Source: Mesorhizobium sp. | GTDB lineage: Bacteria; Pseudomonadota; Alphaproteobacteria; Rhizobiales; Rhizobiaceae | Assembly (NCBI GenBank): GCA_004020545.1 | Contig: SAQE01000050.1 | Span: 1 to 47,764 of the forward strand | Reading direction: 5' to 3' | Length of the DNA stretch: 47,764 nt | Shown: positions 11,237 to 25,287 of the stretch, piece after piece | How the letters are laid out: each line of letters begins with the position of its first letter | Numbering within the stretch: the stretch's first letter is position 1 | The notes under the pieces: model-generated | The model's input: only the letters and a program-made list of their open reading frames with translations | Told to the model about the DNA's origin: nothing | Database searches by the model: none | Program-made: the position numbers and the translations under genes

Positions 11237-11480
11237 TTAGAGTCCGCTTGCCTTGGTGAGGTTGATCCGGAACCGATCGCGCCGGCGCTGGTATTTCCGG
11301 GTCATCTCGGCACTGGCATGGCCAAGCTGTTTCTGCACATAGCGCTCGTCGACCTCGGCCGAGGAGGCGAGGCCAGATCGTAGCGAATGTCCGGCAAAGA
11401 GATTTTCGCTCGCCGGCAGGAGTGAAATCTGCAAAACCCCGGCTCCGTCCCAGCCGATCTTGCCGCGAGCCGAAGTTTCC
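11237..11480 (-). pseudogene. tyrosine recombinase (phage-type integrase), C-terminal fragment
   Basis: On the minus strand the last 60 residues of a tyrosine recombinase are readable: GHSLRSGLASSAEVDERYVQ with the His-x-x-Arg box, then KQLGHASAEMTRKYQRRRDR with the LGH box and the candidate nucleophile Tyr. The core-binding domain and the first catalytic Arg are absent; sequence upstream (beyond about 11430-11480) belongs to a plus-strand enolase-family remnant. The enzyme is inactive but records a mobile element that once entered here. Confidence 0.7.
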
Positions 11481-11481
11481 T

Positions 11482-12106
11482 GAGGTCGGTTGCGGGGCGC
11501 AACCTCGAGGAGGATGTCGCCACGATTTACAAGGTCTGGGAAGCGGTCGGCTTCAAGGCGCGCATCGCGGTCGACGGCAACAGGGGCCTGACGGTCGCCG
11601 CCGCGATCCATCTCGACCGCCTCTGCCAGGCGATCCCGTTCGTCTTCGAGCAGCCCTGCAACACGATGGACGAGATCGCAACGCTGAAAGGCAGGGTCAC
11701 GCACCCGGTCTATCTCGACGAGAGCACCGAGGACCAGAATGCGGTGCTGCGGGCGATCTCCATGGGCATCGCCGACGGCTTCGGCTTCAAGGTCACGCGC
11801 CTCGGCGGTCTCACCAGGATGACGACGGTGCGCGACCTCTGCGCCATACGCTCGCTGCCGCACAGCTGCGACGACGCCTGGGGCGGCGACATCATCGCCG
11901 CGGCCTGCGTCCATCTCGCCGCGAGCGTGGAGCCGCGCCGCATGGAAGGCGCCTGGATCGCTCAGGAATACATCAAAGGGCATTTCGACGCGAAGAATCC
12001 GGTCGTCATCCGCCAGGGTCATATCGCCGTGCCGCAGCGGCCTGGGCTGGGCATCAAACCGGAATCCGGCATGTTCGGCAAGCCGGTGACCACTTACGGG
12101 GACTGA
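11482..12106 (+). pseudogene. mandelate racemase/muconate lactonizing enzyme family, 5'-truncated
   Basis: An open frame without any start codon until 11666 encodes the barrel half of an enolase-superfamily enzyme. Visible metal and catalytic positions: AVDGNRG (Asp), FVFEQPC (Glu), VYLDEST (Asp/Glu) and DGFGFKVTRLGG (Lys). It ends normally (SGMFGKPVTTYGD, TGA at 12104). About 150 N-terminal residues, including the capping domain and the first catalytic Lys motif, are gone at the junction with the integrase fragment. The subgroup resembles enzymes acting on proline betaine or cis-3-hydroxyproline, which is only a guess from general similarity. The next gene overlaps as TGATG, so these two were an operon. 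Confidence 0.7.
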
Positions 12107-12832: not shown

Positions 12833-13078
12833 ATGATCGACCAGATTCGCTCGCTGCTCGAGCAGCATCCGATGATTCCGCTGAATTTCGGCGCGCTCGC
12901 CGACGACGCCAATCTCTACGACGCGGGGCTGACCTCCTTCGCCTCGGTGCAGATGATGCTGGCACTCGAAGAGGAGTTCGACATCGAATTCCCCGAGACG
13001 ATGCTGACCCGGCGCACCTTCTCTTCGCTTGCCAACATCGCGGACGCCGTTTCGCAATTGACGCGCAAGGCGGCGTAG
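12833..13078 (+). CDS. stand-alone acyl carrier protein, partner of the amino acid:carrier-protein ligase
   Basis: An 81-residue acidic four-helix carrier protein. The phosphopantetheine attachment site reads DAGLTSFASVQMMLALE, with Ser35 at the start of helix II in a GLTSF context instead of the GxDSL of fatty-acid ACPs. Helix III follows as DIEFPETMLTRRTFSS. The ATG at 12833 begins a MIDQIRSLLE helix; in-frame codons upstream look non-coding. It is first in a six-gene operon and is followed after 2 nt by the flavoprotein gene. In characterised relatives the dedicated carrier encoded beside the ligase is the substrate that receives glycine or alanine. Here it is expected to carry an aminoacyl thioester in the cytoplasm after priming by a phosphopantetheinyl transferase encoded elsewhere. 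Confidence 0.9.
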   Translation: MIDQIRSLLEQHPMIPLNFGALADDANLYDAGLTSFASVQMMLALEEEFDIEFPETMLTRRTFSSLANIADAVSQLTRKAA

Positions 13079-13080
13079 CC

Positions 13081-14283
13081 ATGAACGTGTTGAGAAAGAT
13101 AGAGGCTTCGGTCGCGCAGGCGCCGGAAGCCGCAATCGAACGCATGCGTCGCGTCGCCGAGATCGCCGCCGGCCATGCCGATCCTGTCGACAAGGAAGGC
13201 CGTTTCCCGGCGGAGACGATCGAGGCGCTGAAGCGCGAGCGCCTGCTCGGCGTGGCGATCCCGATCGAGCATGGCGGCGAAGGGCTCGGTACGATGCAGA
13301 TCGCCGACCTCATCGTCCAGCTCGGCCAGGCCTGCGGCTCGAGCGCGATGATCTATGCCATGCACCAGATCAAGACGTCGAGCTTCGTCACTCACGGCGG
13401 CGCCAGCGACTGGCATCGCGCCTATATGCGGCGCATCGCCGACGAGCAGCTTCTGATGGCTTCCGCGACGACCGAGGCCGGCATCGGCGGCAATTTGCGC
13501 AATTCGATCTGCGCGGTCGAGGTCGCCGGCGGGCGCTTCGCGCTGACCAAGGAAGCCACCGTCATCTCCTATGGCGACTATGCCGACGCCATCCTCGCCA
13601 CGGCGCGTCGCGCCCCCGATGCGGCAAGCTCCGATCAGGTCATGGTGGTGATCCCGGCCGATGGCAACCGCACGCTGGAACGCACTTCGGTGTGGGACAC
13701 ACTCGGCATGCGCGGCACCTGCTCCGACGGCTTTCATCTGGTCGCCACGGGTGAGGCGACGCAGATATTCCCGAAGCCGTTCTCCGAGATCGCGGCGCAG
13801 TCGATGCTGGCCAGCTCGCACATCTTCTGGGCGGCGACCTGGTTCGGCATCGCCGCCGACGCCTTCAATCGCGCGCAGGCCTTCGTCAAGGCGGCGGCGC
13901 GCAAGCAGCCCGAGGCCATGCCGCCGGGCGCGCTGAGGCTGGCCGAGGCGGCCGCCCTTTTGCAGGAGATGAAAGGCCACCTGACGGCCGCCATCCACCG
14001 CTTCGAAGCGGCCAAGGGCGACGACGATGCTTTGTCTTCGATCGGCTTCGCCGCCGAGATCAACGCGCTGAAGGTCGCGGCCAGCGAGAAGGCAGGCGCC
14101 GTGGTGCGTCTGGCCATGCTGGTCAACGGTATCCTTGGCTACAAGAACGGCACCCCGTTCAGCGTCGGCCGGCACTTGCGCGATGTGACCTCGGCGCCGG
14201 TGATGATCTCCAACGACCGCATCCTTTCCAATACCGCGACGCTCATGCTGATGAGCCGCTTCGACACTGGCCTGGGGGGCTGA
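13081..14283 (+). CDS. acyl-CoA dehydrogenase-like flavoprotein
   Basis: A 400-residue protein of acyl-CoA dehydrogenase fold. The order is normal: N-terminal helices ([20 protein letters not shown]), the FAD-binding strand region ([20 protein letters not shown]), the beta barrel, and the C-terminal helical bundle ([20 protein letters not shown], then [19 protein letters not shown]). At the position of the usual catalytic Glu (pattern Y-E-G-T) the sequence reads PVMISNDRI, so the canonical base seems absent. This fits a group of carrier-protein-linked flavoproteins more than a fatty acyl-CoA enzyme. A role in oxidising an aminoacyl group held on the neighbouring ACP is an inference from position. 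It starts 2 nt after the ACP stop, and the ligase gene starts 1 nt after its own stop. Confidence 0.85.
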
Positions 14284-14284
14284 G

Positions 14285-15208
14285 ATGGACGCCAAGACAT
14301 TCGATTCCAAGTCGCTGCTCGACAGCCTGTTCGAGAACGGCATCCTGTTCGAATCCGGCATCGACGGCCTCTATGGCCGCTCGGGCGCATTCGAGGAAGT
14401 GATCGAGCGGTTCGAGCGTCTCGTCACCCGGCTCGGTGCGCCCGACAAGGCCACCCGCATCCATTTTCCGCCGGGCATGAGCCGCGCGACGCTGGAGAAG
14501 AGCGGCTACATGAAGAGCTTTCCGCAGCTTGCCGGCTGTGTGCATTCCTTCATGGGTGGCGAGCGGGAGCATGCGCAACTGCTCGGCATGATCGCGGATG
14601 GCGGGGACTGGACGGAGCTGCAGAAGGCGACGGACGTCGCGCTGACACCGGCCGCTTGCTATCCGCTCTATCCCACCATCGCCGCGCGTGGCCCGGTGCC
14701 GGCGCAGGGCCTGCTTTTCGAGCTCTCCTCGTACTGCTTCCGCCACGAGCCGTCGAAGGACCCGGCGCGCATGCAGCTCTTCCGCATGCGAGAGTTCGTC
14801 AAGATCGGCACGGCCGAGCAGGTGCGCTCGTTCCGCGAAAGCTGGCTGAAGCGCGGCAAGGCGATGATCGAATCGCTCGACCTGCCCTGCGAGGTCGATC
14901 TTGCCAACGATCCGTTCTTCGGCCGCGGCGGCAAGATGATGGCCAACAACCAGCGCGATCAGGGCTTGAAATTCGAGCTGCTGATCCCCGTGACCAGCAT
15001 CGAGAAGCCGACGGCCTGTTTGAGCTTCAATTATCACCAGGACCATTTTGGCCGGACCTGGGGCCTGAAGTTCGCCGACGGGGAGTTCTGCCATTCGGCC
15101 TGCGTCGGCTTCGGGCTGGAGCGTGTGGCGCTGGCGCTGTTTCGCCATCACGGGCCGGACGCGGACGCCTGGCCGGCGGCGGTCCGCGACGTGCTGTGGA
15201 GCGTGTGA
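14285..15208 (+). CDS. amino acid:[carrier protein] ligase (truncated seryl-tRNA synthetase homologue)
   Basis: A 307-residue class II aminoacyl-tRNA-synthetase catalytic core without a tRNA-binding arm. Motif 2 is seen around residues 148-171 ([15 protein letters not shown] then QLFRMREF) and motif 3 as [12 protein letters not shown]. The three zinc ligands of this family are in place: Cys125 (TPAACYP), Glu170 (MREF) and Cys273 (HSACVGFG), the set also found in archaeal-type methanogen SerRS. Enzymes of this group from Bradyrhizobium and Agrobacterium were shown to activate glycine or alanine with ATP and pass it to the phosphopantetheine of a small carrier protein, not to tRNA. Substrate choice here cannot be read from sequence. 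It lies third in the operon, directly after ACP and flavoprotein genes, as in known cases. Confidence 0.92.
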
Positions 15209-15209
15209 C

Positions 15210-16208
15210 ATGATGAGAGCTATCGCCGGCCTCGATCCGGCCAGCTACCGGCCGCACTGGCTGCACGATCCGCAAAGGCGCTGGCCGCAGACCAATTGCT
15301 ATGTCGATCTCGTGATCGAGGTTCTGCACGCGACCGGCCACGATCCGGTCGCGGCGCTCGGCTTCACCGTGGCGCAGGATTTCGAGGGTGATCAGTTCAC
15401 GTTCTTCAAGTTCCCGACCGCCGACCTGCAGAGGCTGGCGGGGCTGGACATCCAGGAACTGGCGATCTTCGATCGGCTGGAGACGCATGTGCTGGCACAA
15501 ATCGAACTCGGCCGGCTGCCGCTGGTCGAGGTCGACGCCTTCTACCTGCCCGACACCACGGGCATCACCTATCGCAATGGCCATTCCAAGACCACGGTCG
15601 GCATCGATGCGCTCGATCCCGAGGGGCGGCGGATGCGCTACTTCCACAATGACGGCTACTTCGCGCTCGAGGGCGAAGACTATGACGGCATCTTCGGCCA
15701 GCGGGATGGTGTGTCGGCCGGCGACCTGCCGCTGTTTCCTTACGCGGAATTCGTGAAGTTCGACGCCACGCGCCCGGCCCGTGACACGGTCGGGACCGCG
15801 GCGGCGTTGCTTGCGCATCACTTGAAGCGGCGGCCGAAGCGCAATCCGCTCGGCGCCTATGCGGCCGCGTTCGGTCGCCACGCTGAAACGCTGGCGACGC
15901 GCTCGCCGGACTATTTCCATACCTATGCCTTCAACTCGCTGCGCCAGGTCGGCGCGAATTTCGAACTCCTCGGCAGCCATCTCGAATGGCTGGGGCAGCA
16001 CGGCGAAACCTGCCTGGCGGAGGCTGCGCAAGCCGCCGGCAACATTGCCGACGGCGCCAAGGTCATGCAGTTCAAGCTCGCCCGCGCGATGGCGCGGCAG
16101 CGCTTCGACGGCCTGGCCGAGGCAATCGCGCCAATGGCGCAGGCCTACGACGCGGTGATGGACGTGCTGGACGCCCGCATGGCGGGTGTCGCCTCCAAGG
16201 CGGCCTAG
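15210..16208 (+). CDS. DUF1839 family protein
   Basis: A 332-residue soluble protein covering a whole DUF1839 domain. Conserved-looking stretches are QTNCYVDLVIEVLHATGHDP near the N-terminus, DQFTFFKFPTADLQRLAGLD, VDAFYLPDTTGITYRNGHSK and SLRQVGANFELLGSHLEWLG. The NCYVD and ATGH residues suggest a Cys/His pair that could form an active site, but this is a guess. The ATG at 15210 comes 1 nt after the ligase stop. DUF1839 genes commonly sit next to amino acid:carrier-protein ligase genes, which suggests a role in taking the aminoacyl group from the ACP or attaching it to an acceptor. No signal peptide is present. Confidence 0.85.
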   Translation: MMRAIAGLDPASYRPHWLHDPQRRWPQTNCYVDLVIEVLHATGHDPVAALGFTVAQDFEGDQFTFFKFPTADLQRLAGLDIQELAIFDRLETHVLAQIELGRLPLVEVDAFYLPDTTGITYRNGHSKTTVGIDALDPEGRRMRYFHNDGYFALEGEDYDGIFGQRDGVSAGDLPLFPYAEFVKFDATRPARDTVGTAAALLAHHLKRRPKRNPLGAYAAAFGRHAETLATRSPDYFHTYAFNSLRQVGANFELLGSHLEWLGQHGETCLAEAAQAAGNIADGAKVMQFKLARAMARQRFDGLAEAIAPMAQAYDAVMDVLDARMAGVASKAA

Positions 16209-16244
16209 GGCCGGCCGAGGCGCATTTGAGCATAGGGTGGGGGA

Positions 16245-18788
16245 ATGGACGCCACAGTGTCGATCGCCGACACAGCCGGATTGCTGGATCGGGGTTGGCG
16301 GATGGCCGTCTCGGCGGCCGGCGCCTGGGCTTCGCCGGACGATATCGACGCAAGCGCCGAATGGCTGGACGCGGCCTGTCCCGGCACGGCGGCGGGCACG
16401 TTGGAAAAGCATGGCCGCTGGGACCGCAAGCAGCCGACCCGGCTGCACGACCGCGATGTCTGGTACAGCCGCCGGCTCGACGCGACCGGTCCGGTGCGGC
16501 TGGTGTTCGAGGGTCTGGCGACTATCGCCGAGGTCTGGCTTGACGACCGGCTACTGCTCACCTCGACCTCGATGTTCGAGCGCCATGAAGCTGCGGTAAT
16601 CCTTTCAGGTGGCGAGCGGCTCGCTATCGTCTTTCGCAGTCTCGACCGCCGTCTGGAGACGGCGACCGGTCCACGCGCCCGCTGGCGTCCACGCATGATC
16701 GACGATCAGCGGCTGCGGTTGGTGCGCACCACCCTGATCGGACACATGCCGGGCTGGTGCCCGAACTTCGATGTCGTCGGGCCGTGGCGTCCCGTCAAGT
16801 TGATCCGCGGCGGGCAGCGCATCCTCGATGCCGACATGCGCGCCGAACTCGACGGCACTACCGGGCATCTTGCGGTCGCGATCACCCTCGCTGAGCCCTT
16901 CGACGATGCGGAAACGGCGCATGTCAGCTGCGCTGGAGTGCGTGCGCGCCTCAAGGTCGAGACACCCACCCGGCTGACGGCGGAACTGGACATTGCCGAT
17001 GTCGCCCCATGGTGGCCGAACAGTCATGGCGAGCCGGCGCTGCACGACGTGATGGCGACGCTCGGCACGATGCGCAACCGGCTCGGCCGGGTCGGGTTTC
17101 GCCGCATCGAGATCGATCGTGGCGCTGACGGACGCGATTTCCGCCTGGTCGTCAACGGCGTGCCGGTATTCTGCCGCGGCGCGGTCTGGACGCCGTCAGA
17201 TCCTGTGCGGCTGCCATGCGGGCGGGCCGAAATCGAACCCGATCTCGACCTCGTGCGCCAAGCCGGCGTCAACATGCTGCGGGTCGGCGGCACCTTCGCC
17301 TATGAGGGCGATGCTTTCCACGAGTTGTGCGACGAGATGGGCATTCTCGTCTGGCAGGACCTGATGCTCGCCAATTTCGACTATCCGGCGAAGAGCGAGG
17401 CTTGGCGGGCGGCGCTGTCGCGCGAGGTGGAAAACCTGTTGAAGCGGCTTCGGCATTCGCCGTCACTGGCGGTGCTGTGCGGCGGCAGCGAGGTGGCGCA
17501 GCAGGCTGCGATGCTCGGCATGCCGCCGGTGATGGATCCGACACCCTGGTTCGACGCGGTCGTGCGTCCGGCCACGCAGGCGATCCTGCCCGATCTCGCG
17601 CTGGTGTCTTCTTCGCCCTCCGGCGGCAGCCTGCCTTTCGCCGCGGATGGCGGCCCGACGCATTATTATGGCGTCGGCGCCTACTGCCGGCCGCTCGAGG
17701 ACGCGCGCCGCGCGGAGGTGCGTTTCGCCAGCGAGTGCCTCGCCTTCGCCAACGTGCCGGAACAGGCGACGCTGGATGAGCATCTGCCCGTTCCGCCCGG
17801 CCACGATCCGCACTGGAAGGCCGGTGTGCCGCGCGATGCAGGTGCGTCGTGGGATTTCGAGGATGTGCGCGAGCACTATCTCGAGGCGCTGTTCGGCGTC
17901 GATGCGCGCCGGCTGCGCATGGAAGATCCCGCGCGCTACCTCGACCTCTCACGCGCCGTCACCGCCGAGGTGGTTGAGCGCACGATCGACGAATGGCGCA
18001 GACCAGCCTCGCCGACGGCGGGTGCGCTGCTGTTTTTCTGGAAGGATCTGCGCCCGGGCGCAGGGTGGGGCATCATCGATTCCACCGGACGGCCGAAATC
18101 GGTCTGGCATGCGCTGAGACGCGCCTTCGCGCCGCTCAGGCTGACGCTGAGCGACGAGGGCGTCAACGGGCTGGGCGTCCATCTCGTCAATGACGGAGCA
18201 AAGGCGGTCGAGGCGACGCTGTCGCTTGCCTGTTTGCGCGATGGCGTCACCCCAGTGGTGACGGCGCGCCAGCCTGTCACCGTGCAGGGGCGCGGGGCGC
18301 AGTCCCTGTCGGCGTTTTCGCTGCTCGGCGCTTTCTTCGACCTGTCCTATGCCTATCGCTTCGGCCCGGCGGGTCACGAGGTAACCGTGGCAAGGCTGGA
18401 AGGCCACGACGGCGAGATCCTGGCCGAAGCCTTTCATGTGCTTCCAGGCGCCATGACCGCACGGCACGATGTCGGCTTGTCGGCGCGGTTGGTGCGCGCA
18501 GAAGACGGCTGGCGCCTGCGGCTCGCCTGCAGGCGAGCCGCCTATCACATCGCCATCAAGGATGGACTGTTCCTCCCGCGTGAGAACGGCTTCCACCTGA
18601 TGCCGGGCACGGTGAAGGAAATTGGCCTTGACGGGCCGGTCTCGGCCACGCCGGCCGGCATCGTGACGGCGCTGAATGGCGATCGCGACGCAGCCTACGA
18701 TGCACCACAAGCGGACATTGCTGAAATCGGGGCAGAAACCAGGGCAGAGATCATGCGAGCGTTGCAGCCCGCAAGGAGCATGGCATGA
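16245..18788 (+). CDS. glycoside hydrolase family 2 protein (beta-mannosidase-like)
   Basis: An 847-residue protein with the GH2 layout: an N-terminal jelly-roll sugar-binding domain ([30 protein letters not shown]), an immunoglobulin-like domain, a TIM barrel ([40 protein letters not shown]) and C-terminal beta domains. The acid/base Glu is present as LCGGSEVAQ (Glu416), where mannosidases read W-x-G-N-N-E; the nucleophile is FASECLAF (Glu497). Both catalytic residues therefore remain. There is no signal peptide, so it acts in the cytoplasm. The gene begins 36 nt after DUF1839 and overlaps the next gene as ATGA. A GH2 enzyme beside an aminoacyl-ACP system suggests that a glycoside is either the acceptor or a later intermediate, which is inference. 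Confidence 0.88.
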
Positions 18789-20575
18789 AGGGGATAGTCT
18801 TCGCCGACACGATCGGCTGGCTTCATGAAGGCAAGGGCACCATTGGGCGCGGCCGAGGCGTCGTCATCGCCGGGGCGCATGGCCACGAGGACCTGTGCAG
18901 CCGGCGTTTCCTGAGGCTGCTGGCCGACAAGGTGGCCGAAAACGGTCTGCCGGCGCTGCAGTTCGACTATCCCGGCTGTGGCAATGCCGCAGGGGATCAT
19001 TCAACGCCTGGTCAGGTGCAATGGTGGATAGAGAGCGTAGGCGCTGCGATCGATCGGCTGAAGCAGGATTGCGGCGTGGCGGACGTCATTTTGGTCGGCT
19101 TCCGGCTTGGCGCTCTGCTGGCGCCACTGGCGGCGGCCGGACGAGACGACGTGGCCGGTCTCGTGTTGCTCGCGCCGCCGTCCTCCGGCAAGGCCTATGT
19201 CCGCGAGATCACGGCCATGTCGCGCATGATCGACGCGCCGCTGGCCAGCCGTTCGGCGGGCGAAGCGCTTTTTACGGAGGGGCGCGAGGCCGCCGGCTTC
19301 CGGGTTTCGCATGAGACGCTGGCCGACCTTTCGGCGCTCGACTGGCGGCATTCCGCGGCAAGCCTTCCACCCTTGCCGATGCTGGTGCTTGCAAACGGCA
19401 AGCCGCTCGCCGCCGCCGAAATCCGTGGCGGCGGGGCGGGCGCCGCGGATATCGCCGAGGCCGAGTTCGATGGCTATCCTCTCTTGATGTGCGACCCGAC
19501 CGCCAACCGGATTCCGGCCGCCGCTCTTGACTGCTGCGCAGGCTGGATAGCCGACCATGCCGGCGAGGCGGTCGCAGGAAAGGCCATTCCGCACGATGCG
19601 TCGGAGTCCCTGGACGGTCCGCACTACACGGAAAAGCCGGTTCTGATCGGACCGGAGCCGATGATCTGCGGCGTGCTTTGCCGGCCGCGCGGACGCCAGA
19701 CCGCGGCCGAGCCGGTTATCTTCCTCAATGCTGGCGGCGTGCCGCATGTCGGCTGGGCGCGTGGCACGGTGGAAGCGGCGCGGGAGCTTGCGGCGGAAGG
19801 CGTAGCTTCGCTGCGCGTCGACCTGCCCGGACTTGGCCTCAGCGATCGGGCCGAGGAAGGGCGCCTGTTCCTCTATGACGGGCGCACGCGCCATGATGTC
19901 AGCCGTGCAATCGACTGGATGGAACGAGCCGGCTACCCCTCTGTCGGCTTGGTCGGCACCTGCGCCGGCGCATTCCAGGCTTTTCACACGGCACGGGCCG
20001 ATCGGCGGGTGCGGACGCTGACCATGATCAACCCGCTCTGCTTCGCCTGGAACAGTTCCTACGCGCTGGAGATGGCGGTCTGGAAGACTTACGAGACGTC
20101 CAAGGCCATGCTTGGGCAGAACGCCGCCGCCATTGAGGAGAGCCGCGAACCGGATGCCCCGACATGGCGCGGGATCGCTTCGCGCAGCGCCCGGCTGATT
20201 GTCCGGCGCGGGCTGGAGGTGATCAAGTCCACATTGTCGATGTTGCATCCGGCCGCTCTATTGGGGCAGCGGCGGGTGGAACGCTGGATGCGCGACCTTT
20301 GCGGCCGCGGCGTGCGGGTTCTCCTGGTGACCTCGGAAGGTGACCTGAGCCTGAAGGAGATCGCCCGCCATTTTGGGTCGGGCGAAGAGCGGCTCGGCAG
20401 CATTCGCGGCGTGACCAGGGTCTCGCTGCCGAATGCCGACCATACGTTGACGCCGTATCACGCACGGCGCGCCGTGATCGCGCGCCTGATCGATCACGGC
20501 GGCATCAGGCGTGACGGCCACGCTCGTTCCGAGCCGGTGCGCGCGACGACAAGCCCGTCCTTCCTGGCGCCATAG
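18785..20575 (+). CDS. tandem alpha/beta hydrolase protein
   Basis: A 596-residue protein with two alpha/beta-hydrolase units. The first (about 1-250) has [20 protein letters not shown] and the elbow [13 protein letters not shown], where Arg107 replaces the nucleophile Ser. The second (about 285-570) has [28 protein letters not shown] and the elbow [12 protein letters not shown], with Cys393 as possible nucleophile, and the late His in [13 protein letters not shown]. The first unit resembles the hydrolases of exosortase systems that carry an Arg at this point. The second could be a Cys acyltransferase or thioesterase. It is the last gene of the six-gene operon and overlaps GH2 by 4 nt. It may release or transfer the product from the ACP; that is inference. 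Confidence 0.8.
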
Positions 20576-20795
20576 GGCGGTCGCTGATTCGGCTGCAGCA
20601 TTGGCATGTGTGGCAAGCGCATCGACATCAGTCTGAGCCTCGCCAGCGCAGCACCAACAGCGGTCGTGTCTAGTTTCTCACATGAGACTTGAGACTGGCA
20701 TCCAGGACACTGGGTGCCAGAGTTCCCGCGTAGGCCTTCCGGTCAGCGCTTCGAACTGTCAGCGAAAATTTGAAGATTTTCGGGAAACTCCGGAC

Positions 20796-20872
20796 TGGTC
20801 GGAGTGGCAGGATTTGAACCTGCGACCCCATCGTCCCGAACGATGTGCGCTACCAGACTGCGCTACACTCCG
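20796..20872 (-). tRNA. tRNA-Pro, anticodon CGG
   Basis: On the minus strand a full cloverleaf folds: acceptor arm CGGAGTG/CACTCCG, D arm GCGC/GCGC, anticodon stem CATCG/CGATG with loop TTCGGGA (anticodon CGG), and T arm GCAGG-TTCAAAT-CCTGC. The 3' ACCA is encoded. It reads proline codon CCG. It is isolated between the ACP operon and the NmrA-like gene, and convergent with the operon. I find no duplicate of its 3' end nearby that would mark an integrated element. Confidence 0.95.
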
Positions 20873-22993: not shown

Positions 22994-23040
22994 GGCCATC
23001 TGTGCTACCCGGTCGGCCAACTTTTCAGCGTGAGATCCGA

Positions 23041-25287
23041 ATGAGCCAGCGTATCGTCAGTTTCGTCATGAGCGGCGGCGTCGGCTCGCGGCTCTGGCCG
23101 CTGTCGCGCGAGGACAACCCCAAGCAGTTCCACGATTTTTCCGGTGACGGCTCGATGCTGGCCAGGACCTTGCGCCGGCTGGCGGCGAGGCCCGGCGGAG
23201 AAACCCCGATCTTCCTGATCGCTTCCGAGCGCCATGCCGAGCGCGTTCATGCCGACCTTGCCGGCATCGATCTCGCGGGTGGCGGTCCGCTGTTCGAGCC
23301 GACCGGGCGCAACACCGCCGCCGCGGTCGCGCTGGCCAGTCTGCGCACGCTCTCCGAATATGGCGACGAGCTGGTGCTGGTGGTGCCGTCCGACCACGAG
23401 ATATCGACACCGCGGCAATTCTGGCTGAGCATCGAGGCGGGCGCGACGGCGGCCAACTCCGGGCGCCTGGTGGTGTTCGGCCTCAAGCCGGCGCAGCCCG
23501 AAACCGGCTATGGCTATATCGAGGTCGCGGCCGACAGGGGCGCGGCGTTCGACGTCTCGCGCTTCGTCGAGAAGCCCGATCTCGCCACTGCGCGGGCCTA
23601 TCTCGATGCCGGCACCTTCTACTGGAACACCGGCATCTTCCTGTTCCGCGCCGGCGCCATGCGCGATGCGTTCGCGGCCTTGGCGCCCGATATCTGGCAG
23701 GCGACCGAAGCGGCCTACAAGGCGGCGACCAGCGATCTTTCCGGCCTCTATATGCCGCTTGAGCTCTACTCCGAGATTCCCTCGATCTCGATCGACTATG
23801 CCATCATGGAGCGGGCGAAGGACATCGCCATGGTGCCGGCCGGCTTCCGCTGGAACGACCTCGGCTCCTGGCAGTCGCTACTCGATGTCGGCCCATCCGA
23901 CAAGGACGGCAACGTCATCGTCGGCGATGTCGTCGCCATCGATTGCGAGAATTCCTACATCCGCGGCGACGGCCGGCTTCTCTCGGCCATCGGCATGAAG
24001 GACGTCGCCATCGTTTCGACGGCCGACGCCACCTTCGTCGCGCCGGTCAGCCGTAGTCAGCACGTCAAGAAGATCGTCGAGCAACTGGAGAAATCCGGCC
24101 GTCTCGAGACGAGATTCACGCCGGCGCATGACCGCGTCATCGAAAGCGGCGCCTGGCGCCAGCGCGTCCACCACTGGCTGTTCGACGAGACGCTGCCGCT
24201 GTGGTCGACGTCGGGCGTCGACGAGCGGCATGGCGGCTTCCACGAGGCGCTGGGCTTCGATGCCTCACCGCTGATGAAGCCGAAGCGCATGCGCACGCAG
24301 GCGCGCCAAGTCTATGCCTTCGCCGTCGCCAAGGAGCGCGGCTGGGACGGCCCTGCCGACCGGCTGATCGCCCATGGCATCGACTTCATGGCGGGGCGAG
24401 GCCGCACCGACAGAGGCGGCTGGGTGCGCACGCTCAATATCGACGGCTCGGTCGCCGACCCGGTCGAGGACGCCTACGACCATTCCTGCGTGCTCCTGGC
24501 GCTGGCGCACGCCCATATCTCCGGCCATCCCGACGCCTTGCGGCTGGGGGAGGAGACCTTCGCCTTCCTCGACGCCCATCTCGAGGACAGTCGCATGACC
24601 GGCTTCCTCGAAACGTCTGACGGCGAGGGCGAGCGCCGCTCCAACCCGCATATGCATCTGCTCGAGGCCTTCCTCGCCTGGCACCAGGCAACCGGCGAGC
24701 GCGCCTATCTGCGCCGCGCCTCACGCATCATCGACCTTTTCCGCAGTCATTTCTTCGATGCCGAAAGCTGGACGCTGGGCGAATATTTCGACGACGGCTG
24801 GAAACCGGTGGCCGGCGAGAAGGGCGCCTGGACCGAGCCCGGCCATCATTTCGAATGGGCCTCGCTGCTTGTCGATTTCGCCGCCCGCAGCGGCCAGGCC
24901 GAGCTCACCGCCTTCGCCCGCAAGCTCTATGCCTCGGCCGTAGCCAACGGCCTCAACCGCGCCACCGGCCTTTCCTACGGCGCCGTCTCACGCCAAGGCC
25001 TGCCGGTCGACACGGTCTCCCGCAGCTGGCCGCAAGCCGAAGCCATAAAGGCGGCGATCGCGCTCGACGGCTCGGGTGGACCCGACCTCAAACCCGAGAT
25101 CGAGGCGCGTGTCGGCCGGCTGTTCCGCTGGCACATCGACCCGGCGCCGCTCGGCCTCTGGATCGACCGCATCGACGAGCGCGGCCGCTCCCTGGCGACC
25201 GACGTGCCGGCCAGCATCTTCTACCATCTGGTCTGCGCGCTGATGCAGTATCTGGACGGGACGGCGGGGGAAATCGGTGCGCGATGA
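23041..25287 (+). CDS. mannose-1-phosphate guanylyltransferase fused to AGE-family isomerase domain
   Basis: A 748-residue two-domain cytoplasmic enzyme. Residues 1-355 are a GDP-mannose pyrophosphorylase: signature SGGVGSRLWPLSREDNPKQF, VPSDHE, FVEKPD and FYWNTGIFLF, with an SIDYAIME substrate loop. Residues about 375-745 form an (alpha/alpha)6 barrel of the N-acylglucosamine 2-epimerase/mannose isomerase (AGE) type: RQVYAFAVAKERGW, GHHFEWASLLVDF with its catalytic-type His, and SRSWPQAEAIKAAI. In classic bifunctional ManC/AlgA enzymes the C-terminal half is a cupin phosphomannose isomerase; here an AGE domain takes its place. The product GDP-mannose would feed exopolysaccharide or LPS synthesis. 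The ATG at 23041 is chosen because the pyrophosphorylase fold begins directly after it. No sugar-pathway genes adjoin it. Confidence 0.88.
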   Translation: MSQRIVSFVMSGGVGSRLWPLSREDNPKQFHDFSGDGSMLARTLRRLAARPGGETPIFLIASERHAERVHADLAGIDLAGGGPLFEPTGRNTAAAVALASLRTLSEYGDELVLVVPSDHEISTPRQFWLSIEAGATAANSGRLVVFGLKPAQPETGYGYIEVAADRGAAFDVSRFVEKPDLATARAYLDAGTFYWNTGIFLFRAGAMRDAFAALAPDIWQATEAAYKAATSDLSGLYMPLELYSEIPSISIDYAIMERAKDIAMVPAGFRWNDLGSWQSLLDVGPSDKDGNVIVGDVVAIDCENSYIRGDGRLLSAIGMKDVAIVSTADATFVAPVSRSQHVKKIVEQLEKSGRLETRFTPAHDRVIESGAWRQRVHHWLFDETLPLWSTSGVDERHGGFHEALGFDASPLMKPKRMRTQARQVYAFAVAKERGWDGPADRLIAHGIDFMAGRGRTDRGGWVRTLNIDGSVADPVEDAYDHSCVLLALAHAHISGHPDALRLGEETFAFLDAHLEDSRMTGFLETSDGEGERRSNPHMHLLEAFLAWHQATGERAYLRRASRIIDLFRSHFFDAESWTLGEYFDDGWKPVAGEKGAWTEPGHHFEWASLLVDFAARSGQAELTAFARKLYASAVANGLNRATGLSYGAVSRQGLPVDTVSRSWPQAEAIKAAIALDGSGGPDLKPEIEARVGRLFRWHIDPAPLGLWIDRIDERGRSLATDVPASIFYHLVCALMQYLDGTAGEIGAR

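Follow-up and report, generated by a model that had tools for sequence, protein, structure and literature searches.

A six-gene cassette in Mesorhizobium that may transfer a carrier-bound amino acid to an amino sugar

Six adjoining genes

The stretch of DNA analysed here, referred to as the window, comprises positions 1 to 47,764 of contig SAQE01000050.1 from Mesorhizobium sp. (assembly GCA_004020545.1). Its forward strand carries six consecutive genes. They encode an acyl carrier protein (ACP, 12833–13078), a flavoprotein with the fold of acyl-CoA dehydrogenases (ACAD) lacking the canonical catalytic Glu (13081–14283), an amino acid–[acyl-carrier-protein] ligase resembling seryl-tRNA synthetase (SerRS) and belonging to class A as defined below (14285–15208), a DUF1839 protein of papain-like fold that we propose to be an aminoacyl-ACP:amine transferase (15210–16208), a glycoside hydrolase family 2 (GH2) protein similar to beta-mannosidases (16245–18788), and a tandem alpha/beta hydrolase (18785–20575). 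The reading frames are spaced by 2, 1, 1 and 36 nt and end in a 4-nt overlap, precisely as described in an earlier note on this DNA.

The family names proposed in that note agreed with our family scans. The carrier protein matched PF00550 (37 bits) and NF005480 (96.4 against a cut-off of 72), and the ligase reached 491.8 bits with NF005479, well above the curated cut-off of 357; the window genome holds a single copy of this ligase type. Pfam placed the Acyl-CoA_dh_N and Acyl-CoA_dh_1 domains of the flavoprotein above cut-off and its middle domain below (23 versus 33.3). DUF1839 (PF08893) scored 415.5 bits against a gathering cut-off of 22.5, the GH2 protein was recognised by Glyco_hydro_2_N2 (PF22666; 46.3 bits, cut-off 27), and the sixth protein showed two alpha/beta-hydrolase stretches. 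A simple hydropathy scan found no signal peptide or evident membrane helix in the six proteins, the highest 19-residue mean being 1.9, in the hydrolase. Since a simple scan gave no sigma-70-like promoter, and likewise no convincing terminator pattern, co-transcription is argued from spacing and conservation only. A route outside the logic of non-ribosomal peptide synthetases (NRPS) had been suggested for this operon; indeed, neither adenylation nor condensation domains were detected in the six proteins, and the 20 recurrent neighbour proteins scanned contained no NRPS domain.

Co-occurrence and gene order

Conservation of the gene set was assessed in draws of 297 genomes of the order and 398 of the phylum, a fairer sample than our 80 named loci, which represent the top 80 among 584 confirmed stretches and are tilted towards the window's clade. 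Both draws include related, non-independent genomes, so that Fisher values overstate certainty. Within the order, 64 genomes encoded the ligase above cut-off and 49 encoded DUF1839. All of the latter also possessed the ligase, with DUF1839 on the same strand 31–455 nt downstream (measured between profile-match ends), while DUF1839 without ligase occurred in none of the 297. The hydrolase profile (E < 1e-20) recovered 50 genomes, namely the same 49, all at E < 1e-130, and one further genome (G253) with weak, split fragments. In this last genome, which has the ligase and no DUF1839, the fragments (G253:C1:1694274-1695609) are perhaps the relic of a lost operon. In the 49 genomes the hydrolase nearest to the ligase lay within 10 kb in 32 cases, at 10–30 kb in five, farther away on the same contig in three and on another contig in nine; as the nine may reflect assembly breaks, only three hydrolases are proven to be distant. 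Within this order, the hydrolase is an obligate sixth member, though the loosest in position. The phylum draw gave a similar relation between ligase and DUF1839, the 16 genomes with DUF1839 all falling within the 28 that carry an above-cut-off ligase. At genus level DUF1839 was present in 23 of 146 genomes, and 59 of 72,556 plasmid records, from nine genera, carried it as well.

In the 81 stretches formed by the named loci and the window we detected the carrier in 80, the flavoprotein in 79, the ligase in 81, DUF1839 in 80, the GH2 protein in 78 and the hydrolase in 65. Several absences coincide with contig ends; one full stretch (L048) holds carrier and ligase alone. All six genes, in the same order and on the same strand, were found on plasmids of Azospirillum lipoferum 4B, Azospirillum sp. 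TSH58 and Mycetohabitans endofungorum, and the first five occur together on annotated plasmids of Rhizobium leguminosarum, Shinella and Caballeronia grimmiae. The position of the hydrolase varies most: only 13 of the 81 stretches have it within 400 nt behind GH2 on the same strand, in 31 it comes directly after GH2 but on the opposite strand, in 16 it falls outside the stretch, and in the others it lies elsewhere.

These counts bear on the central proposal of the earlier note, that the six proteins form one pathway. Membership in a single pathway, inherited as a unit, is strongly supported, and chance clustering of the genes was rejected (ligase in 49/49 genomes with DUF1839, hydrolase in the same 49). 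The comparison of ligase neighbourhoods recommended there came out in favour of the proposal for the window's clade, which regularly retains DUF1839, GH2 and hydrolase; across the order, 15 of the 64 ligase-bearing genomes lack DUF1839.

Carrier, ligase and ligase classes

The phosphopantetheine Ser35 of the carrier, within the motif G-L-T/S-S-F, is kept in 80 of 80 aligned rows. The three zinc ligands ascribed to the ligase could be located at C125, E170 and C273, which are invariant across 16 aligned ligases and would correspond to the zinc ligands of Bll0957. Ligases of this family load Gly or Ala onto a carrier protein and not onto tRNA. Their description in 2010 reportedly cast them as a link between the worlds of translation and non-ribosomal chemistry; for the purpose of the charged carriers the literature searched offers no settled answer.

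The ligase tree resolved three classes. Class A, with the window and with betaproteobacterial members nested inside, received a support of 94/96, slightly below the threshold used; class B was supported by 96/98 and the divergent class C by 100/99. Class B accounts for the 15 ligase genomes without DUF1839. In the 12 class B loci examined the flavoprotein adjoins the ligase, and no match to DUF1839, GH2 or hydrolase was obtained. The crystallised enzyme Bll0957 is nearest to this class (664.6 bits to the ligase of locus L144, 333.2 bits to that of the window). As a member of class B, Bll0957 provides the biochemistry of a relative from another setting. Comparison of two crystallised chains (PDB 4h2w_A and 3mey_A) showed that 4h2w departs from Bll0957 where class A reads AGKMLANNQRD, and the carrier in the 4h2w entry is as close to the window ACP as Atu2571 is to that ACP. 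On this evidence 4h2w seems to be a ligase whose carrier-binding segment is of the class A type.

Ligases of class C do not reach the NF005479 cut-off. Six of their 13 loci contain a protein of the MBOAT cluster and four a small carrier-like protein; in the single MBOAT scanned (together with one carrier), the MBOAT profile gave 73.6 bits and DltB 174.6 bits, the latter below its cut-off of 375. At loci L141, L155, L156, L157 and L158 (e.g., L158:3250-8728) the MBOAT and a membrane protein adjoin the ligase, with the carrier-like protein in four loci, and by eye one neighbour may be SGNH/DltD-like. These five loci look like a Dlt-type system in which a SerRS-like ligase replaces DltA. No Dlt system of this kind is apparently described in the parts of the literature searched.

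A flavoprotein lacking the dehydrogenase Glu

In acyl-CoA dehydrogenases the catalytic Glu lies within the motif YEGT. The window flavoprotein has Ile376 at this position, and Ile or Val occupies it in 78 of 78 ungapped rows, so that assignment as a canonical acyl-CoA dehydrogenase was rejected even though fold and domains of that family are present (Pfam; model with a predicted local distance difference test score, pLDDT, of 91.0; Foldseek). Class D flavin monooxygenases (DszC, nitrososynthase) and dehydrogenases both appear among the best structural matches, and no flavin reductase is encoded among the six genes. Nearly all of the 79 class A rows keep the motif R-D-x-x-S-A-x-x-M-I-x-N-D-R, and a slightly altered form of it recurs in 4 rows from betaproteobacteria and 12 from class B. 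As the dehydrogenase Glu is absent, we consider oxygenation or imine formation more likely than plain desaturation. The substrate would most simply be the aminoacyl-ACP, since the flavoprotein accompanies the ligase even at loci that lack DUF1839 and GH2.

DUF1839 resembles carrier-dependent amide-forming enzymes in fold

The structure of DUF1839, the proposed transferase, was predicted by AlphaFold2 from 25 sequences (pLDDT 90.1). In a Foldseek search with this model, the 19 best solved relatives were solely chains of AziU3/U2, CtaG and CcbD (E 1.8e-8 to 1.1e-4, TM-score about 0.54–0.62), aligned over 322–363 columns and thus over nearly the whole chain. Phytochelatin synthase came next after the CcbD-type matches with an E value of 0.049. 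Going by their entry titles, we take CtaG and AziU3/U2 to be carrier-dependent amide-forming enzymes. CcbD and LmbD join carrier-bound proline through an amide to a thiooctose by way of a Cys thioester (PMC12945683). DUF1839 has been placed in the papain-like superfamily, with a triad C(T/S)H derived from modelling and a guessed role in acyl-CoA-dependent glycan processing (PMC10318531); the main text of that paper contains no mention of CcbD, LmbD, CtaG, lincosamide or AziU. The full-length match of the modelled DUF1839 fold to AziU3/U2, CtaG and CcbD appears to be new in the present analysis.

Cys30 (15297–15299), His125 and His146 (15645–15647) of DUF1839 are present in all 79 ungapped rows. 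The active Cys is absent from the operon copies of two betaproteobacterial-type genomes (L134:9967-10851 in G588 and L161:9977-10897 in G521). Both genomes possess a second DUF1839 copy with intact Cys (L134:14786-15688 and L172:127-1047, respectively), as expected if this residue is needed. The second copy of G521 has a divergently oriented ManC-like neighbour (Pfam NTP_transferase and ManC beta-helix).

GH2 protein and tandem hydrolase

Beta-mannosidases (PDB 5n6u and 2je8) are the closest matches of the GH2 protein, and both catalytic Glu residues claimed for it are conserved: all 77 ungapped rows have E416, and 76 of 77 have E497. In the GH2 clan, Asn precedes the acid/base Glu. Here the motif reads Gly-Gly-Ser-Glu, with Ser415 instead of Asn in 77 of 77 ungapped rows, and this replacement suggests that the activity may be altered.

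The sixth protein does consist of two units, as had been claimed, but only the second looks catalytic, because the nucleophile place of the first is occupied by Gly (45), Arg (14, including the window) or Ser (6) in 65 rows, whereas the second has an invariant Cys. Its triad of Cys393 (19961–19963), Asp520 and His553 is retained at each position in 62 of 62 ungapped rows. We therefore rejected the notion of two working serine hydrolases. Assignment as an exosortase A-associated hydrolase was rejected by score (TIGR03100, 75.5 versus 168.45; TIGR03101, 78.8 versus 202.75). In eight rhizobial loci the hydrolase is fused behind another domain (1103–1116 aa), and in about a dozen loci it adjoins a separate protein of 504–544 aa. 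This partner was flippase-like in the four cases scanned (two fusions, two separate proteins), which matched Polysacc_synt_3 above the Pfam cut-off; NCBIfam flippase matches remained below cut-off.

Association with polysaccharide genes

The recurrent rhizobial neighbours, with families named from one or a few members apiece, comprise GT4 glycosyltransferases, a GumC/Wzc-type protein, GH5, a GumK-like protein and flippases. Polysaccharide genes (tblastn, 1e-10) were found near 38 of the 68 named loci longer than 20 kb, compared with 4 of 12 class B and none of 13 class C loci. Where the hydrolase is more than 30 kb away or on another contig, its surroundings contained a GumC/Wzc-type match in 11 of 12 genomes, as opposed to three of the 25 loci of classes B and C. 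Some of the matches around distant hydrolases are poor (58 bits), and among the comparison loci are stretches of less than 20 kb. Three of the distant hydrolases sit in a near-complete cluster with a GumC/Wzc-type gene. An O-antigen-ligase-like partner occurred in 17 of 40 genomes with DUF1839 (40 of the 49) and in 3 of 40 without it (40 of a random 49 among the 248 others). Its name is tentative, as the Shinella protein annotated in this way is 23% identical to the rest, and the family member at locus L055 has no Pfam match.

In the window itself the nearest hint of polysaccharide synthesis is a protein encoded at 23002–25287 (+), in which a ManC-like guanylyltransferase (GMP_PMI, 364.5 versus a cut-off of 372.95) is fused to an N-acylglucosamine 2-epimerase-type domain (PF07221, 303 bits). 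The window genome contains five GumC/Wzc-like matches, and nothing clearly comparable to the clusters of other genomes emerged in the two regions inspected. In many rhizobia the product is likely to end up in a polysaccharide, though this link is not seen in the window itself. Amide-linked aminoacyl groups are known from bacterial amino sugars, an example being N-acetylglycyl and hydroxybutyryl-alanyl groups on 4-amino-4,6-dideoxyglucose (PMC3210612).

Proposed pathway and alternatives

We propose that the six-gene pathway attaches a small amino acid, probably in oxidised form, to a sugar through the latter's amino group, a reading that we consider on balance probable. The family of the ligase strongly suggests that it adenylates a small amino acid and loads it onto the ACP. 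The ACAD-fold flavoprotein would then oxidise the aminoacyl group on the carrier. Going by its fold, DUF1839 could take over the group onto Cys30 and hand it to the amine of an amino sugar in the manner of CcbD. For the last two proteins we can offer only tentative roles: the cytosolic GH2 protein might make, trim or proofread a glycoside, and the Cys-type hydrolase might carry out a second acyl transfer or an editing reaction where the saccharide meets the flippase. In many rhizobia the product would join an exported polysaccharide. As mechanism we prefer aminoacyl transfer to an amino sugar, with moderate confidence. The earlier note had envisaged an amino-acid-containing, perhaps glycosylated, metabolite; the product is better described as an amino acid on an amino sugar, in many rhizobia probably part of an exported glycan.

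Several observations weigh against this proposal. The fold matches of DUF1839 have root-mean-square deviations of 5–7.6 Å, and a DUF1839 profile of 25 sequences, searched against the sequences in the PDB, found none of AziU3/U2, CtaG and CcbD up to E 10. Because that search shows no sequence relation, we state that DUF1839 may work like CcbD, CtaG or AziU, not that it is one of them. Its published triad C(T/S)H (PMC10318531) also differs from the Cys-His-Glu of CcbD, and among the best Foldseek matches of the flavoprotein dehydrogenases are mixed with DszC-type monooxygenases. As to the sugar partners, polysaccharide genes accompany only 38 of the 68 longer named loci, and in the window no cluster of this kind adjoins the operon. 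The O-antigen-ligase-like partner is absent from the window genome, where the GH5 partner was matched at E 3.9e-4 only. The annotated stretches around the operons of Azospirillum and Mycetohabitans contain no polysaccharide genes apart from glycosidases and a lipoteichoic acid (LTA) synthase family protein.

The same chemistry might instead yield a soluble small metabolite, an aminoacyl-amino-sugar reminiscent of lincosamides, with the polysaccharide neighbours of rhizobia as later additions. Such a product would suit the stand-alone six-gene operons of Azospirillum and Mycetohabitans, the window without polysaccharide cluster and the fact that the nearest fold relatives of DUF1839 are natural-product enzymes. 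It fits poorly, however, with the lack of a dedicated exporter among the six genes, with the hydrolase–flippase fusions and with the GumC/Wzc-type genes near distant hydrolases, and we regard it as somewhat unlikely. Were DUF1839 a thioesterase or amidase acting in editing or on the cell wall, and not a transferase, the oxidised amino acid would be released free. This is improbable to us, given that the full-length top matches, taken as carrier-dependent amide-forming enzymes, rank far ahead of phytochelatin synthase and peptidases and that GH2 is kept next to DUF1839. In its favour, the papain-like superfamily consists mainly of hydrolases (PMC10318531). Use of the charged carrier in a non-ribosomal peptide, proposed when the ligases were discovered (as told in PMC2922099), is very improbable in view of the sugar-related partners and the absence of NRPS domains from the six proteins and the 20 neighbours scanned.

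Beyond the proposed transfer to amino sugars, a wider picture is possible, and we offer it tentatively: a mobile, general cassette for the decoration of bacterial glycans, in which the ligase charges the carrier, the flavoprotein, no longer a dehydrogenase, generates an unusual oxidised acyl group and the papain-fold enzyme attaches it to amino sugars that are then exported. Each of the three ligase classes would supply a branch of its own, among them a Dlt-like envelope system with the ligase in place of DltA. The co-occurrence of ligase, DUF1839 and hydrolase, together with the transferase-like fold, makes the purpose of the charged carriers testable. If true, our proposal would provide a function for DUF1839 and a further mode of glycan decoration for rhizobia, azospirilla and endofungal symbionts.

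Apparent mobility and flanking genes

A block from about 12.4–12.7 kb to 20.58 kb of the window matches three Mesorhizobium records at 90–93%. In two of them (L032 and L034) the match ends at 20576, one base past the hydrolase gene, and in the third (L033) at 20624. ARAGORN predicted a tRNA-Pro (CGG) at 20796–20872 on the reverse strand, 220 nt beyond the match end at 20576 and with its 3' end facing the cassette, which makes it a probable integration site. The 3' part of this tRNA recurs beside the cassette over 47 nt (L033:16428-16474) and 45 nt (L034:16829-16873), where ARAGORN finds no tRNA; the window contains no second copy of the tRNA 3' end. On the other flank, at about 11240–11410 (−), a stretch of 41 residues matches the terminal part of the Phage_integrase profile with a score under the cut-off (22.4 against 27.1 bits). 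From the match ends, the tRNA 3' stubs in L033 and L034 and this integrase remnant, it is probable that the cassette was brought in at tRNA-Pro, and it is apparently mobile.

Between the integrase remnant and the operon lies an enolase-superfamily fragment (11666–12103, +; MR_MLE_C, 79 bits, profile positions 86–215 of 219), probably a truncated gene. In more than 20 named rhizobial loci, for example L060, L067 and L073, EpmA-like, EF-P and lysine-2,3-aminomutase-like genes lie upstream of the ACP gene (clusters 7, 8 and 10, one member of each scanned). Another aminoacyl-modification system therefore neighbours the operon there.

Comparison with known systems

The locus is not new. A note in proof of 2010 (Biol Direct; PMC2922099) listed ACP, a redox protein, a SerRS paralogue, Atu2574, a glycosidase and liposaccharide genes as a neighbourhood, and predicted that the aminoacyl group is first altered by the redox protein, probably through monooxygenation, and then linked by the conserved uncharacterised Atu2574 as an amide to an amino sugar of the cell surface. 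Gene order, with Atu2571 as the ACP, identifies Atu2574 as DUF1839. Our preferred mechanism agrees with this prediction, and the interpretation in the earlier note has to be amended in this respect, since the neighbourhood and a similar mechanism were already in print. The neighbourhood as given in that note in proof includes no mention of a tandem hydrolase, a CcbD-like fold, ligase classes or mobility. What the present analysis adds to it are support at the level of the fold, the hydrolase as sixth member, its fusion to a flippase, the ligase classes and the mobility.

CcbD/LmbD, CtaG and AziU3/U2 are the closest to DUF1839, with a predicted likeness of fold over the full length. In analogy to CcbD, which passes a carrier-bound amino acid via Cys to an amino sugar, DUF1839 may act on the aminoacyl-ACP. 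The CcbD-type systems differ in their gene partners, and their carrier is loaded by an NRPS adenylation protein, whereas a tRNA-synthetase-like ligase is the proposed loader of the window carrier. BtrH of butirosin biosynthesis, a papain-like ACP:aminoglycoside acyltransferase (PMC10318531), works alike; it is not among the best fold matches of DUF1839 shown by Foldseek. Bll0957 of Bradyrhizobium (PDB 3mey and 4h2s) belongs to the same ligase family as the window enzyme, and its class B likewise has the flavoprotein alongside, but, unlike the class A ligase of the window, it groups with loci without DUF1839 and GH2. The Dlt system, in which an amino acid is loaded onto a carrier for an envelope polymer, works alike and is closer to the class C loci with their DltB-like MBOAT; the window operon has no MBOAT, and a cytosolic papain-like protein stands in its place.

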